Shown in pieces: positions 39,749 to 47,301 of a stretch of 47,467 bases of DNA. Every line of letters begins with the position of its first letter. Positions within the stretch are counted from its first letter, which is position 1. Origin of the DNA: Caldilineaceae bacterium (GTDB lineage: Bacteria; Chloroflexota; Anaerolineae; Caldilineales; Caldilineaceae); NCBI GenBank assembly GCA_022824685.1, contig JAJDZJ010000148.1:1-47467 (forward strand). Direction: 5' to 3'. Position numbers and translations under genes: made by a program. The notes under the pieces were generated by a model that saw only the letters and a program-made list of their open reading frames with translations, had not been told where the DNA came from and did no database searches.

Positions 39749-40255
39749 TCATTCTGCCGCTCTGATATTGGCCAACGCTTCCCGCGCTACGCTCGCCCAG
39801 GATTCCGGCAAGTTCTCGCTCAGCCACTGGATTTTCTTCTCGGCTCTTGTTTCTTTGAACTCGCCGAGCTGCCGAATGACAACCTCGGCCAAGCCGGGCC
39901 GGGCAGGATAGCGGTCTGCGGCGATATGTGTGGGCAACCTTTCCAGAATGTCGAGCAGGTGCAGACGTATTTCCTCCGTATCGGGCGACGGTATCCACGC
40001 TTCGCGAACATACCCCCTGGAGGCATACTCGCTACTATTGTTGCGCATTATCGGTCCGATTGGAATCGGATCGCGTTGGGGTCTGCGGTGGGGATGGTTG
40101 GCGCAGTAGGTCCAGAAAGGGTCCTTGATCGGGACGCGCCTGATCTCGCAGTAGGGTTCCAAGTCGTTGTTGGACGACTCGGGGTAGCCCTTCTCGCCGC
40201 GGTTTTTGCGATTGAACCAGCAGGTCCCACAGCAGTCGGAGCCTCCATTGGGCAT
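39749..40255 (-). CDS. Cys-rich protein of unknown function
   Basis: The 168-residue product has an N-terminal Cys/His cluster: CC at 8-9, Cys12, Cys36, Cys51, His54 and His56, in a context rich in Trp, Asn and Pro ('GTCWFNRKN', 'FWTYCANHPHRRP'). This could bind zinc or an Fe-S cluster. Residues about 90-168 form a helical region with several Leu repeats. The pattern looks like a conserved, uncharacterised protein rather than a chance frame. GAGGAG lies nine bases before ATG 40255. It follows the large lipoprotein gene but is separated from it by a clear terminator, so it is probably transcribed alone. I assign no function. Confidence 0.75.
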   Translation of the reverse strand: MPNGGSDCCGTCWFNRKNRGEKGYPESSNNDLEPYCEIRRVPIKDPFWTYCANHPHRRPQRDPIPIGPIMRNNSSEYASRGYVREAWIPSPDTEEIRLHLLDILERLPTHIAADRYPARPGLAEVVIRQLGEFKETRAEKKIQWLSENLPESWASVAREALANIRAAE

Positions 40256-40355: not shown

Positions 40356-42836
40356 TTACTCCTGATTCAGTTCGGCGGTTACGTCCAGCTGCGCGCCGAC
40401 GATCAGGGGCAGGAGTTCTTCGGCAAACAGGGCGGAGACATTGGGATCTGCGAGTATGTTTGCGATATCTCCTGGAAGGAATGGCGCGGCCAACTCCAGT
40501 GTACGGAGGATGGACGGCGAATCATAATGGACTGTGAGGAGAACCACTTCGTCGGCGACGACATTCAGCTGGTTGGCAGAGGAGGTCAACTCCAATTCGG
40601 AGACTTGCAGACCGTCGTAGAGGATGGAGGCAATGTTGGCGGGCAGGGCCGGCAGGTTGACGCCGTTCTCCTGCAACTGACCTGCGGGCACGCCGGCCAC
40701 AGAAGTGATTTCCGAACCTTCCAGCGTGAGCCCGAGCCCGAGAACGGGGCGGTGCTCGACATCGATGTCAGGGGGTTCCATGCGGACTGCGGTTACATCG
40801 AAAGCGGGCGCCATTTCTATTCCTTCTGCGCCATCGGCCACCGGTATGGAGAGGGCGACGCCGATATCGGTCTTCTGAAGGAATTCAAGGCCAACGCCGA
40901 GCATCCCAGGCGGGATGGGCAGCAGTTCGGTGACGACGCGCTGGAGGGTTTCCAGGGATTGATCTGTCCATGAGATAACGGGCAGGTGGCCGCCGTTGGA
41001 GGCCAGATAGAGGCTGGCGTCGATGATATTGAGATCGAGCCTCTGGATACCGAGGCTCTGCATATCGGTGATAAAGCGGGGTTGCAAGATGGACTGGCTG
41101 CCGAGGGGGATGCCCATGACGGCGAGCGCGCCATCGGCCTTTACTTCAACTGGCAGCGAGGCCAGCCTGGTTTCGGGGGCTTCCTGTCCTGCCAGGGCGA
41201 GCTGTACATCAAGTCCGTTTGAGATTACGGGGGGCAGGTGGGGCAGGTACTGGCTGATTGCGCCGATGATGGCGACATCTTCCTCAAGGGAGGAGACGAC
41301 GACGAGAAGCCGGTTGAGCGCGGCTTCGTCGTACTGTATGGTGAGCAGGCTGCCGGAATCGACGACGAGATCGATGCCGCCGGCGGACGTGGTGAGCTGC
41401 AGCGTGTCCGAGCCGACTCCGCCGACGATGTTCATGACGGTTGGCGGCAGGCTGACGGGCGGCAACAGGCCCATGAGGTCGGTGAGGGAGATGCCGAGGG
41501 CCGAGGTAACGTAGCCGTCGCTGTCGATGGCCGCGCCGATTCTGAGGGCCGGATCTACGCCTTCGGGCGCGGCTGCGAAGTTGGGTGCTCCCACGTCGAA
41601 TTCTTCGCTGAAGGTCATCCCGTCCTGCGCGGGCAGGTCAACGGAAAGGCCGATATTCGTTTTGGCGAGGAGGCCGCGCATAACGGTAAGGCCGACATCG
41701 ACCATGCCCGGCGAAACGCCAAGGAGGTCAACGGCGACGTCACCGATCGTGTCGAGGGATGAGTCGGTCCAGAGTATGGAGGGCAGGGACTCTTGGTTGA
41801 GCGCCAGGTAAAGGCCGCCGGACTGGATACTCAGGTCCAGCTTCTGTGCGTTGGTTGCGCCGAGGATGCCCATGATGTCCGCGGGCACGATGGAACCAAG
41901 CCCCAGAGGGATGCCGAAGGCGCCCAACGATCCGTCTTCACCGATGCTGACCGGAATGGTTGGGAGCATCGTATCGGCGGCCGGTTCGCCGGTAAAGGAG
42001 ACGATGATATCGAGGTCTGCGCCCTGGAGTTTGGGCAGGACTTCACCGATCATGCCGCCCATGGAGGCGTCGACGAAGGCGCTGACGATGGGCATCAGAT
42101 TGTCGAGTCGTTCGGAATCGTATGCGAGTCCCGGCAGATCTGTGTTATCAAGGGCGAGGTCGATGCCGTTAGGTTGGGTGGCGAGGGAGAACTGTTCAAC
42201 GCCGACCGCGTTCAAGATTTGGAGGGCCATCGGCGGGAGCGCCACACCAAGCGAGGCTCCGAGGGACTGCTCGATTTCCGACAAGGGGATGCCTTCGAAG
42301 GAGGCCTGCCCTTCAGAGTCGAAGGCGAGGCTGGCAAACTGAAGGGGCCCGATGGTGGTTTCGGAGGCGCTCTCTGATGAGACAAGCTCTTCGCCCTGCC
42401 AGTAGGGGATGTTCTGGCCGGCAGTGGGCAGAATGATAATGGCTCCGAGGCCAACTCTGCGCAGCCAGGGCAGCGCGGAGGCTCCGACTTCGGCGCCGGC
42501 CACATTGGAGAGGATGTCGCCAACGAGTTCGGCTGATTCGTCACTCCATTTCAGATAGGGGAGAGGTTCTCCGTCGGCATGCAAAAAGACGCCGTGATAA
42601 CCGATGCGCACCTCAAGGACGTCGACACCGGCAACGGAGAACTGATCCAGCATAGGTTGCTGCAGGATGGCTCCCATACTGAAGCCAAGCACAGTGCCGT
42701 TGCCGTTGGCATCAACTCTGATTGGAACTGACGGGAGGTTGAACCAAGTAGAGCCGCCCTCGCCGCCGCCATTACAGGCGCCCAGCACCAGGATTAAGGC
42801 CAGGATTACAATAAATTTGCGGAGTAAGGCCGGCAC
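40356..42836 (-). CDS. Large lipoprotein with a threefold two-module repeat, unknown function
   Basis: The 826-residue product has a lipoprotein signal: a basic start, hydrophobic ILALILVLGA and lipobox LGAC with Cys21. After it come six modules in the order A-B-A-B-A-B. A modules begin near residues 35, 292 and 559 ('P-V-x-dG...GIPLG...SIL', 'LYLA-NxE-LP-I-WTD-SL'). B modules begin near 165, 430 and 698 ('GI-L...LPP...', 'L-L-T-S', 'L-IxYD'). The A-B unit recurs about every 260-267 residues. No Cys remains after the lipobox. The pattern suggests repeated beta/alpha domains on the cell surface, perhaps ligand or lipid binding, but no family is recognised. It has its own promoter and terminator, so it is a single-gene unit. 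Confidence 0.85.
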   Translation of the reverse strand: MPALLRKFIVILALILVLGACNGGGEGGSTWFNLPSVPIRVDANGNGTVLGFSMGAILQQPMLDQFSVAGVDVLEVRIGYHGVFLHADGEPLPYLKWSDESAELVGDILSNVAGAEVGASALPWLRRVGLGAIIILPTAGQNIPYWQGEELVSSESASETTIGPLQFASLAFDSEGQASFEGIPLSEIEQSLGASLGVALPPMALQILNAVGVEQFSLATQPNGIDLALDNTDLPGLAYDSERLDNLMPIVSAFVDASMGGMIGEVLPKLQGADLDIIVSFTGEPAADTMLPTIPVSIGEDGSLGAFGIPLGLGSIVPADIMGILGATNAQKLDLSIQSGGLYLALNQESLPSILWTDSSLDTIGDVAVDLLGVSPGMVDVGLTVMRGLLAKTNIGLSVDLPAQDGMTFSEEFDVGAPNFAAAPEGVDPALRIGAAIDSDGYVTSALGISLTDLMGLLPPVSLPPTVMNIVGGVGSDTLQLTTSAGGIDLVVDSGSLLTIQYDEAALNRLLVVVSSLEEDVAIIGAISQYLPHLPPVISNGLDVQLALAGQEAPETRLASLPVEVKADGALAVMGIPLGSQSILQPRFITDMQSLGIQRLDLNIIDASLYLASNGGHLPVISWTDQSLETLQRVVTELLPIPPGMLGVGLEFLQKTDIGVALSIPVADGAEGIEMAPAFDVTAVRMEPPDIDVEHRPVLGLGLTLEGSEITSVAGVPAGQLQENGVNLPALPANIASILYDGLQVSELELTSSANQLNVVADEVVLLTVHYDSPSILRTLELAAPFLPGDIANILADPNVSALFAEELLPLIVGAQLDVTAELNQE

Positions 42837-42885
42837 GAGCCGCCTCCTTATGGGTGCGTAACAAAGATAAGCAGATAAGAACCAG

Positions 42886-43610: not shown

Positions 43611-45356
43611 TCATTTTTCGTGCGGCTTTTGGGCGCGGGCGCGCAGCGCGGACAGCATGGCATCCTGTTCGTTCCAGGGGTACTCGGTCTCTCCGTAGCA
43701 CATGCTGCGTTCGTGTCCCTTGCCAAAGGAGGCCACGACATCGCCTGCGCGGGCCATTGCCACGCCAAAGCGAATTGCCTCGGCGCGATCGGGCACGACG
43801 GCAAACCGGGCCGAAGGGGACGGTGACGTTGTTTGCGATAGTTCGGGAGCGTCGTACAGGAGGCTGTGCTGGCCGCGGGCGCTTTCGGCCGGGCTCGGGA
43901 TTACGTCCTGAATGCCGGCCGTGATTTCGCGGTTGATTTCCGCCAGATCTTCGGTACGGGGGTCTTCGGCGGTGATGACGGTGAAATCGGCCAGGCGGCC
44001 GCTGACCTGCCCCATCAGTCGCCGTTTGCCGCGGTCTCGCAGACCGGCGCAGCCAAAGATCGCAATCAGTCGTCCGCCTTCACTGCCTGCATCTTTGGTG
44101 ACAAGCGGTCGCAGCGTCTCCAACGCCCGTTCGAGGCTGGCAGGGGAATGGGCGAAGTCGACGACGGCCAGAAAGTCCTGGCCGCAGTCCATACGCTGCA
44201 TTCGGCCCAGGACGGAGGAGAGAGAGGCGACGCCCAGCCGGATCCGCTCTGGGGAGATGCCCAGGCCGAGAGCGACCGCTGATGCGCAGAGAATGTTTGA
44301 CACATTGAACTCGCCGATCAGCCGGGTCTCCATGGGGATGGCGCCGCCCCACCAGACAAGCTCGAAGCGGGTGGCATCGGGCAGATACTGGATCTTGCGG
44401 GCGTAAACGTCAGCAGTTGGGTTGGCGGCGCTGTAGGTGTAGGAGGAGACGGCGGGGGAATCGGAGCGGGCGCGCTCTTCGGCCAGCGCGTTCTGCAGGT
44501 GCGCGCAGCTGCTGTCGTCGAGGTTGAAGACGGCGATACGGGGAACGCCAGGCTTTGGCGGGGACCGAAACAGGCTACGGAAGAGCAGAAACTTTGCCTC
44601 CCGATAGGCCTCAAATGAGCCGTGAATGTCGAGGTGTTCGTGGGTGATATTGGTGAGCGCGGCCGCATCATACTCGACTGCCGCGACGCGTTTCTGATCG
44701 AGCCCGAAGCTGGTGCTTTCGACAACGGCGAAGCGGCACCCCGCTGAACGCAATTGCGCCAGGAATTTCTGCACCGTCGGCGCGTCGGGCGTTGTCACGT
44801 GAAGACCGGTCTCCTGCTCGACGGCAGCGATGCGCGCGCCGACGGTTGTGATGACGCCCACGCCGGCAGAGCGGCAGAGGATCGCCTCGAGCAGGGAGCA
44901 GGTTGTTGTTTTGCCATCGGTGCCGGTCACGCCGATTACGGTCTGGGCGCGGCTGGGGAAATCGTAAAAGGCTGCGCTGAGCCAAGCCAACGCCTCCCGG
45001 CTGTCATTCACCTGGATATAGGGCGTCTGTGTTTGCTGTGGCCACCAGCCGCGTTCTTCCAGCCGGATCAGGGGGAGGCTGCCCACGACGGCGGCGGCGC
45101 CGGAGGCAACGGCCTGGGGAATGAAGCGATGGCCGTCGGTCTGCAGGCCCGCGACGGCGACAAACAGCGAGTTCCCGCTGACTTCCCGGCTGTCATCGGT
45201 GACTTGACCCACTGCAAGGGGGGGAACTTCCGGGTCTCCGGCAACGCGCAGCGCGTCCGGAAGCCGGGCCAGCAGGGCGGTCAGAGTTTTCTCCTGGCCG
45301 GTCACTTGCGCGGGGGGCCCGGAGGCGGCGGCCGGTTTGAAAGCGTTCGCCGTCAT
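43611..45356 (-). CDS. murE: UDP-N-acetylmuramoyl-tripeptide synthetase (MurE)
   Basis: The 581-residue product adds the third amino acid to the peptidoglycan stem peptide, using ATP in the cytoplasm. The N-terminal domain has 'VTDDSREVSGNSLFVAV'. The ATP site is GVTGTDGKTTT (142-152). TTPDAP (188-193), a modified 'ESTSFGLDQKRV' (213-224), 'TNITHEHLDIHG' (235-246) and Lys255 in 'EAYREAKFLLF', the usual carbamylated Lys, follow. 'VVDFAHSPASLERAL' corresponds to the DYAHTPDSLE motif. The specificity loop reads EDPRTED instead of the DNPR of meso-diaminopimelate enzymes, so the third residue (diaminopimelate, ornithine or another) cannot be fixed. The ATG overlaps the stop of the upstream propeller gene (ATGA), so its translation is coupled to that gene. 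No other mur gene is in the window. Confidence 0.92.
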   Translation of the reverse strand: MTANAFKPAAASGPPAQVTGQEKTLTALLARLPDALRVAGDPEVPPLAVGQVTDDSREVSGNSLFVAVAGLQTDGHRFIPQAVASGAAAVVGSLPLIRLEERGWWPQQTQTPYIQVNDSREALAWLSAAFYDFPSRAQTVIGVTGTDGKTTTCSLLEAILCRSAGVGVITTVGARIAAVEQETGLHVTTPDAPTVQKFLAQLRSAGCRFAVVESTSFGLDQKRVAAVEYDAAALTNITHEHLDIHGSFEAYREAKFLLFRSLFRSPPKPGVPRIAVFNLDDSSCAHLQNALAEERARSDSPAVSSYTYSAANPTADVYARKIQYLPDATRFELVWWGGAIPMETRLIGEFNVSNILCASAVALGLGISPERIRLGVASLSSVLGRMQRMDCGQDFLAVVDFAHSPASLERALETLRPLVTKDAGSEGGRLIAIFGCAGLRDRGKRRLMGQVSGRLADFTVITAEDPRTEDLAEINREITAGIQDVIPSPAESARGQHSLLYDAPELSQTTSPSPSARFAVVPDRAEAIRFGVAMARAGDVVASFGKGHERSMCYGETEYPWNEQDAMLSALRARAQKPHEK

Positions 45357-47260
45357 AGCTCGTCGGTTCCGGAGCCTCCGTCGCGGGCGAACGATATTCC
45401 GGCGACCAGCATCAGCAGGAAAAAGACTGCGGCGCCGCCAACCCAGATCGGCGGGATCCGGGTGAGATTCCGGTTGAGATTGCCTGGACTCACGGCAGTG
45501 GATGTCGCGGTTGGCGCTGGCTCCGGTCCGGCCGCTGAAGTGGTTGGCGCGCTGGTCGGCGTACTGTCAGTCGAAGGCGGCGGAAGCGGTGTCTGGGTCT
45601 GGATTGGGTCAACCGCGGGGGCGTTGGGATCGGGCGTTGGGGTGGACGTACCGGCGATTTCAGGGGTGGCTGCCGGCCCTTGTGAACTTCGCTGCGGCGC
45701 AGGCGTACACGTAGGCACGGGCGTTATTGCAGGGGCATTGGGGTCTGGCGTCGCGGTTAATGTACCGGTCGCGGTGGGCGTATCGGCGGGGGCATTGGGG
45801 TCTGGCGTCGCGGTTAATGTACCGGTCGCAGTGGGCGTATCGGCAGGGGCATTGGGATCGCGTGTGGCTGTCGGGGTGCTGGTTGACGCGGGCGGTCCGG
45901 TTTGGGCATCGGGGACGACGTTGTCGGTCAGCAAACAGGGGGATGTCGCGCCTTCGGGAGGCCCGTCGGGATCGCGGGTAACGGTGGCAGTTGGTGTGGC
46001 CGAAGGCGCGTTGGGATCGGGTGTGGCGGTGATGGTCGGCGTTTCTGAGGGCAAGGTGGGAATAGGGGTCGCGGTGGGGGTAGGGGTCTCGGTAGCCAGG
46101 GGCGCAACCGTGGACGTTGGCGACAGAGACGGGGTTGGGGTTGGCGCTCTGGGCAACTGGGCCGGATCCAGAGGCGTAATCTGGGCCGAAGACAGGAACG
46201 TTGCGCTGCTGTCGAGCGTCCTGAGGACGCCATCCTGTTCTGTGCCGGCGTAGGTGACGCCCACGAAGGTTGAGGAGGAGGCCAGACGGAAGACCGGGTT
46301 GGTATAGGCGGCGCCATTGACGGGCACGCGAGTCCAGTCCGGTACACCTTGCGTCCAAAGCCCGACATTGGTGCCAACTACGACGCCTTGGCCGCTGACG
46401 GCCAGGTCGTAGATGACGACACCGGCGGGGAAGGCGGGGTCCTGCAGCCAGTTTTCGCCATCGTCGCTCAGGTAGAGTCCGGAGGCGAAGGTGCCGACAT
46501 AAAGACGGTCATGCAATTTTGTCATGCCGCGTGCGATGATGCCCGCCGGCAGGTTGACCCGTTCCCAGTTTTGAGTTCCTGAAGCGAGGCGCCAGACGCC
46601 ATCATGGGTACCGGCAAAGAGGTCGCCTTGCCTGTCTGCAAAGGCGCGCACGCGCAGCGCGCTGCCGGACAGGCCCTCGCTGTACCACTCCCAGCTTAGG
46701 CCGCGGTCCAGGCTGCGCACAACGCCGTCATGGCGGGTTCCGGCATAGAAGACGGTTTGGCCGTTTTCGATGCGGGTATAGAGGCGGCCGATGCCGCTAT
46801 TCGGGGAGAGGACCTGTTGGATTGAGGACTCCTGCCGCCAGGACAGGCCGCCGTCTTCGCTGATGAAGAGATTGCCGACACCGCCGTCGGCGGCGAGGAC
46901 GAAGTTGCCGTCCTGTGGATCGAAACGGATGGAGGCGACAGAGGTATCGGGAGGGAGCTCGGCGTTGGCGCGGCTCCAGGTGTGGCCGCCGTCGGCGCTG
47001 CGGTAGATTCCGGCGGGCACGGGGACGTTTAGTGTGCCGGCGACGATGATACTGGCGTCATCGGGCGAAATGTCCAGGCCAATGATGCTGTTCGAGAAGG
47101 GCACGAAGCCTGATTGGGCGAAGATTCGGCTGCCGGAAAGGGCGAGCAGCGCCGTCAGAAGCAGGAGAAGCGGCCACAGTCGCCGATGGACGGGTGAAGC
47201 ATTGGATGCCGATTCAGAGCGGTGTGGACCGCGCGGATTTTGCTGGTGACCAGCCTGCAT
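45353..47260 (-). CDS. Surface-anchored Asp-box beta-propeller with Pro/Thr-rich stalk
   Basis: Start choice: ATG 47260 follows GGAGGG by four to five bases; ATG 47272 has no ribosome site. The 635-residue product has a hydrophobic signal ('LWPLLLLLTALLALSG', about 28-43) and a propeller at about 55-365. Asp boxes are SADGGHTW (88-95), SEDGGLSW (134-141), SLDRGLSW (183-190) and SDDGENW (265-271). A Pro/Thr/Ala-rich stalk (about 370-600) contains five DPNAP motifs. A single membrane helix ('WVGGAAVFFLLMLVAGISFA', about 606-625) and a short acidic tail end the protein. It should stand on the outer face of the membrane, reaching across the wall. It is the first gene of a two-gene unit with murE. 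Sialidase activity is not implied; this propeller type also serves binding or assembly roles. Confidence 0.87.
   Translation of the reverse strand: MQAGHQQNPRGPHRSESASNASPVHRRLWPLLLLLTALLALSGSRIFAQSGFVPFSNSIIGLDISPDDASIIVAGTLNVPVPAGIYRSADGGHTWSRANAELPPDTSVASIRFDPQDGNFVLAADGGVGNLFISEDGGLSWRQESSIQQVLSPNSGIGRLYTRIENGQTVFYAGTRHDGVVRSLDRGLSWEWYSEGLSGSALRVRAFADRQGDLFAGTHDGVWRLASGTQNWERVNLPAGIIARGMTKLHDRLYVGTFASGLYLSDDGENWLQDPAFPAGVVIYDLAVSGQGVVVGTNVGLWTQGVPDWTRVPVNGAAYTNPVFRLASSSTFVGVTYAGTEQDGVLRTLDSSATFLSSAQITPLDPAQLPRAPTPTPSLSPTSTVAPLATETPTPTATPIPTLPSETPTITATPDPNAPSATPTATVTRDPDGPPEGATSPCLLTDNVVPDAQTGPPASTSTPTATRDPNAPADTPTATGTLTATPDPNAPADTPTATGTLTATPDPNAPAITPVPTCTPAPQRSSQGPAATPEIAGTSTPTPDPNAPAVDPIQTQTPLPPPSTDSTPTSAPTTSAAGPEPAPTATSTAVSPGNLNRNLTRIPPIWVGGAAVFFLLMLVAGISFARDGGSGTDEL
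45732..45845 (-). repeat. Tandem 57-bp repeat in the stalk coding region
   Basis: Two copies of a 57-bp unit (45732-45788 and 45789-45845) differ at two positions only, and a third copy begins at 45846 but diverges after about 11 nt. Each encodes the 19-residue stalk unit DPNAPADTPTATGTLTATP (in register with the frame). The near identity implies recent duplication, so stalk length is probably variable between strains. Confidence 0.85.
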
Positions 47261-47301
47261 AGACCCTCCCATAAAGGGGCGCCGGAGAGGTAGGTTTAAA
47301 A

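Follow-up and report, generated by a model that had tools for sequence, protein, structure and literature searches.

The window analysed here, a 47,467-nt stretch of DNA from a member of the Caldilineaceae (Chloroflexota) whose genome is a 5.2-Mb assembly of 243 contigs, encodes a lipoprotein that consists of six copies of a single domain and belongs to an undescribed family, that of the A-B module lipoproteins, widespread in Chloroflexota. We tentatively propose that it is a membrane-anchored binding or tether protein of the cell envelope, whose reach or valency has been raised by duplication of its units.

The lipoprotein gene reads from 42836 to 40356 on the minus strand and encodes 826 aa from a GTG start, with a Shine-Dalgarno-like AAGGAGG legible 6 nt 5' of the GTG (42843..42849, minus). 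An earlier note on this DNA had recognized the open reading frame at 40356-42836, but its strand needs correcting to minus. The note's description of a lipoprotein with Cys21 agrees with the signal peptide and lipobox at 42774..42836 (minus; Cys21 codon 42774-42776), where the sequence reads LVLGAC. A lipobox Cys shortly ahead of the first module is a membership feature of the family that is present in the window protein (LGAC21), and this alignment column is conserved in nearly all orthologs. Two multi-unit members, L059 (1732-3420) and L067 (5893-6786), have lost the Cys and retain a hydrophobic N terminus, so their products are probably anchored by an uncleaved helix. Beyond the signal peptide, the 826-aa protein has no further strong hydrophobic segment. 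Comparison of the gene with five orthologs gave dN/dS values of 0.10-0.14, so that a pseudogene or chance ORF at 40356..42836 is ruled out by a ratio of about 0.1; the gene is under purifying selection.

The protein is organized into three A-B units of ~265 aa apiece. Self-alignment, the check that had been set beforehand, revealed a significant internal repeat (z 35.6 between units 2 and 3, 26.5 between units 1 and 2, and 17.5 between units 1 and 3, with 0 of 300 shuffles as high), and the period of about 260-267 residues reported in the earlier note stands. Its landmark positions also fall within a few residues of where it had put them, for example G182, G448, LPSILWTD at 351, and LPVISWTD at 618. 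Further support comes from an independent profile built from one-unit proteins of other loci only; a match of each unit to this profile is a second membership feature, and all three window units match it (E 3.5e-40, 8.8e-23, and 5.9e-23). Module profiles and predicted structural elements place, all on the minus strand, A1 at 42381..42746 (residues 31-152), B1 at 41967..42380 (153-290), A2 at 41577..41972 (289-420), B2 at 41175..41576 (421-554), A3 at 40767..41180 (553-690), and B3, the most diverged of the six, at 40359..40766 (691-826).

The six modules of the proposed A-B-A-B-A-B arrangement are thus retained, but the division into two module types is not, since all belong to one domain family. 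When the A halves of 31 one-unit relatives were aligned with their B halves, profile to profile, hhalign gave Prob 100 and E 1.3e-42, and the A profile matches B1 at 3e-19, as strongly as it matches A1. A and B are copies of one module of ~125-130 aa, present six times in the window protein; with A homologous to B, the period-260 unit is itself a duplicated ~130-aa module. The module consensus opens with two strands carrying (D/E)G.PS..G, followed by a helix, NIQH.E, DGL...VNG..LP...W, two helices, and a final strand that ends FP...GA..IP in one-unit members. A single-module profile has exactly ten matches in nearly all of the near-complete genomes of the window's genus, a number that fits six in the window gene plus two in each of two one-unit paralogs; because modules of the window protein went into this profile, the result is partly circular for the window's genome.

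The AF2 model of the full-length protein (pLDDT 77.3, pTM 0.60) predicts alpha/beta modules, with the element order b-b-(b)-a-b-b-b-a-a-b repeated in six successive copies, as expected of the repeated domain fold that had been claimed from sequence. Prediction of one A-B unit from 71 unit rows, a check suggested at the same time, gave a confident model (pLDDT 88.3, pTM 0.82) on which none of the PDB chains compared could be superposed; in VIA-align not one of 998 came up to Z 2. Sliding-clamp homology was suggested by Foldseek, where clamps (PCNA, DnaN, gp45, 9-1-1) dominate the lists from both the PDB and a viral library for both models. One could imagine a clamp fold re-used outside the cell, each A-B unit being a diverged clamp fold and the units forming ring-like arches, and the similar helix-strand-strand-strand order and the weak alignment of module B2 to clamp domains (Z 2.1-2.2) would fit such a picture. 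However, the best PDB match for the unit, to PCNA, has an E of 0.015, a TM-score of 0.11, and an rmsd of about 19 A, and the best E for the full-length model, 9.6e-4, is spread over 931 columns with an rmsd of 36 A. Superposition of the unit does not support clamp homology, and we regard re-use of the fold as very improbable; the clamp ranking reflects a similar element order and may be coincidental. A confident model without a structural match makes this family a good target for fold discovery.

Sequence searches agree with the earlier statement that no family could be recognized. With E values up to 10 admitted, Pfam gave 0 families for the window protein, leaving no known family that spans its whole length; nothing significant was found for the lipoprotein family among NCBIfam and PHROG profiles or, in single-sequence, unit-profile, and module-profile searches, among PDB sequences, and plasmid and phage records contained no match to the lipoprotein. 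Neither the LppX_LprAFG Pfam profile nor the wall-binding Pfam domains (LysM, SPOR, OmpA-like, PG_binding) matched the window protein or the 31 one-unit relatives.

The composition of the mature lipoprotein, very hydrophobic and acidic, is unusual for a soluble protein (GRAVY +0.41, 44% AILMFV, pI 4.05, net charge -79), and its hydrophobic content exceeds that of soluble proteins encoded nearby in the window. Given this GRAVY and pI, the lipid binding guessed at in the earlier note is possible; for its wider suggestion of a lipid or polymer ligand, the composition and the neighboring murE offer indirect support only. A carrier of lipids or other hydrophobic ligands would hold acyl chains in a hydrophobic cavity in each unit and pass lipids outwards, as in LprG/LppX or LolA. 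The pairing of one-unit relatives with a small membrane partner, described below, could be read in the same way. Yet high GRAVY can come from low charge alone, the absence of any Pfam match extends to LppX_LprAFG, and the LppX/LprG, LolA, and TULIP folds are not among the structure matches listed by Foldseek, although absence there is not exclusion. On balance we consider a carrier somewhat unlikely.

Of 150 genomes sampled from the class to which the Caldilineaceae belong, 41 carry one-unit or multi-unit members of the family (30 of 103 good genomes), and one genus of another Chloroflexota class gives weak matches. A family found in about a quarter of the sampled class genomes is missing from Pfam, NCBIfam, and the PDB. 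Its basic form, surveyed within Chloroflexota, is one A-B unit on a lipobox, and the window protein represents the Caldilineaceae multi-unit branch. One-unit genes often occur in tandem (e.g., L105, L106, and L107). Directly downstream on the same strand, 28 of the 70 distinct one-unit genes with enough flank, a raw count irrespective of phylogeny that covers 8 GTDB families, have a gene whose product, of ~100-260 aa, contains two hydrophobic segments and is here called the two-TM protein. Genome searches find this protein once or twice per genome, with most copies adjoining a family gene in 12 genomes, and it is rare away from family genes. Because it is found mostly right beside them, the one-unit lipoprotein gene and the two-TM gene likely form one module, and their products may interact physically. 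The two-TM protein is a frequent companion, not a condition of membership, and a search of the window's genome found no match to it.

At L105, L107, L113, and L163, in two GTDB families, one-unit genes lie directly beside xanthine-dehydrogenase-like molybdenum hydroxylase genes, and in two Caldilineaceae genera a SIS-domain (GlmS/NagB-II-like) gene is next to or near one one-unit paralog (L101, 1500-2543, plus strand; L104, 6744-7787, minus strand). In one genus of another Chloroflexota class (L145-L147), two adjacent diverged members of about 329 and 432 aa are paired, the second with N-terminal hydrophobic stretches in place of the lipobox. The tight adjacency of one-unit and two-TM genes, together with the molybdenum hydroxylase operon beside some of them, could also point to a lipoprotein with an accessory or regulatory role in a membrane complex, one that binds the two-TM protein and controls an enzyme or transporter, with no polymer or lipid ligand; the Caldilineaceae version would then use a replacement partner. 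We think this unlikely, as the molybdenum hydroxylase neighbor is confined to two GTDB families and no two-TM partner is detectable for the multi-unit form in the window's genome.

In the Caldilineaceae, the multi-unit gene has a different and conserved setting. Upstream of it in the window lies murE (43611..45356, minus), the sole gene above the MurE cut-off in the window's genome, preceded with a 4-bp overlap by a gene for a BNR/Ycf48-like secreted or membrane protein (45353..47272, minus) that holds its place ahead of murE across the Caldilineaceae. This protein has a stalk of Pro/Thr-rich repeats (PTPTATPDPNAPADTPTATGTLTATPDPNAP-like) and a hydrophobic segment at its C terminus. BNR protein, murE, and lipoprotein gene recur in this order in the Caldilineaceae, and several genera have nuoN still farther upstream. 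Of the 35 Caldilineaceae loci with enough upstream sequence, 34 have murE upstream of the lipoprotein gene and on its strand, a raw count irrespective of phylogeny, with orthologs down to 30% identity. One gene separates murE from the lipoprotein gene in L068, and murE is missing in L062.

That this order persists where the proteins are 30-50% identical suggests some link in function or expression. In the window's genus murE and the lipoprotein gene lie roughly 400-950 bp apart, which makes a single operon less well supported. Linkage to murE across the whole lipoprotein family was rejected, as it holds in Caldilineaceae only and one-unit genes elsewhere are not near murE. Since the link is absent outside Caldilineaceae, where the nuoN-murE order predates the arrival of the lipoprotein gene, it may be positional, a matter of inherited gene order.

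On the 3' side, the window contains a 168-aa ORF just beyond the lipoprotein gene (39749-40255, minus) with a Cys-rich start (CCGTCWFN...CEIR...YCANHP); it is kept in most of the window's genus and has no Pfam match. In other Caldilineaceae genera the lipoprotein gene is often followed by a divergent Wzy_C protein, a CHAT protein, and then DUF5656, as in L058 (7690-11753, minus) and its equivalents, where a protein of ~880 aa with a Wzy_C (O-antigen ligase) domain accompanies a CHAT-domain protein. This conserved Wzy_C/CHAT pair was not found beside the lipoprotein gene in the window's genus.

The multi-unit form was sought with conserved-peptide patterns in all genome contigs, and all confirmed loci come from MAGs, with the label Caldilineaceae or Chloroflexota on nearly all of them. 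Three units are present in 27 of these 37 loci (about 795-837 aa) and two in 9 (540-577 aa), the last being cut by a contig end. In a unit tree from a quick search, with SH-aLRT as its only support, the first units all group in one clade (98) and the later, second-type units all in another (96). Units 2 and 3 of L063 and L066 are sisters (100), apart from those of the window's lineage. The simplest history suggested by these sequences is that one A-B unit became two and that a third then arose, at least twice, by duplication of unit 2; alternatively, units 2 and 3 may have recombined in one lineage. At least two gains of a third unit mean that extra units were repeatedly kept.

From established lipoprotein biology, we infer that the window protein would be exported by Sec and lipidated at Cys21, leaving its N terminus anchored in the outer leaflet of the cytoplasmic membrane and its modules projecting into the wall zone. 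Most likely each A-B pair would form a compact domain that binds a partner in the envelope, be it a polymer of the wall or of a layer, an envelope component linked to lipid, or a different protein of the envelope. More units would give a longer membrane-to-wall reach or a higher avidity, and the multi-unit protein would tether or scaffold the unusual envelope of the Caldilineaceae. The one-unit form in other families of the class would probably work in complex with the two-TM protein encoded next to it. The module repeat, the six-fold element order, the confident unit model, the conserved murE order, and the repeated gain of units favor a tether, as do the adjacency of the two-TM gene and the envelope layers of Litorilinea aerophila. 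The reading is weakened by the absence of a known wall-binding domain, the restriction of the murE link to Caldilineaceae, and the missing two-TM partner in the window's genome.

The species label Litorilinea aerophila is carried by loci L049 and L050, both with the multi-unit gene. In cryo-tomograms of this species, which is without an outer-membrane assembly system, inner and outer layers and a protein lattice are seen, their composition being unknown (PMC13319060). The lipoprotein is a reasonable candidate component of envelope layers of this type, and a conserved multi-module lipoprotein linked to murE offers a concrete, testable candidate for those of the Caldilineaceae. A bolder and rather doubtful possibility is that the module is a fold absent from the PDB that defines, with its two-TM partner, an undescribed envelope system widespread in the class, and that the Caldilineaceae have enlarged it to four or six modules, making it a structural part of a multilayered envelope that lacks an outer membrane.

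Among known systems, mycobacterial LprG, of Pfam LppX_LprAFG, is reported to bind lipoglycans in a hydrophobic pocket (PMC4214796). LprG and LppX resemble the window protein in being lipid-anchored extracytoplasmic proteins of an unusual envelope with a hydrophobic composition, whereas the window protein has no sequence match to them and is made of repeated ~125-aa modules. DNA sliding clamps (PCNA, DnaN) share repeated alpha/beta modules of similar size and the top Foldseek rank, but they are cytoplasmic, in contrast to an exported lipoprotein, do not superpose on the A-B unit (TM 0.11, Z under 2), and show no sequence match. Tethering lipoproteins such as Braun's lipoprotein and the LysM proteins link the membrane to the wall or an outer layer, a role only proposed for the window protein, which differs in architecture and has no known peptidoglycan-binding domain or recognized covalent-attachment motif. 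The unnamed one-unit lipoproteins of the same class (e.g., L003, L088, and L086) have one unit instead of three, are often paired with a two-TM gene, and lie away from murE, but share with the window protein a lipobox and homologous paired modules, with a profile E of 3.5e-40 to the window protein.
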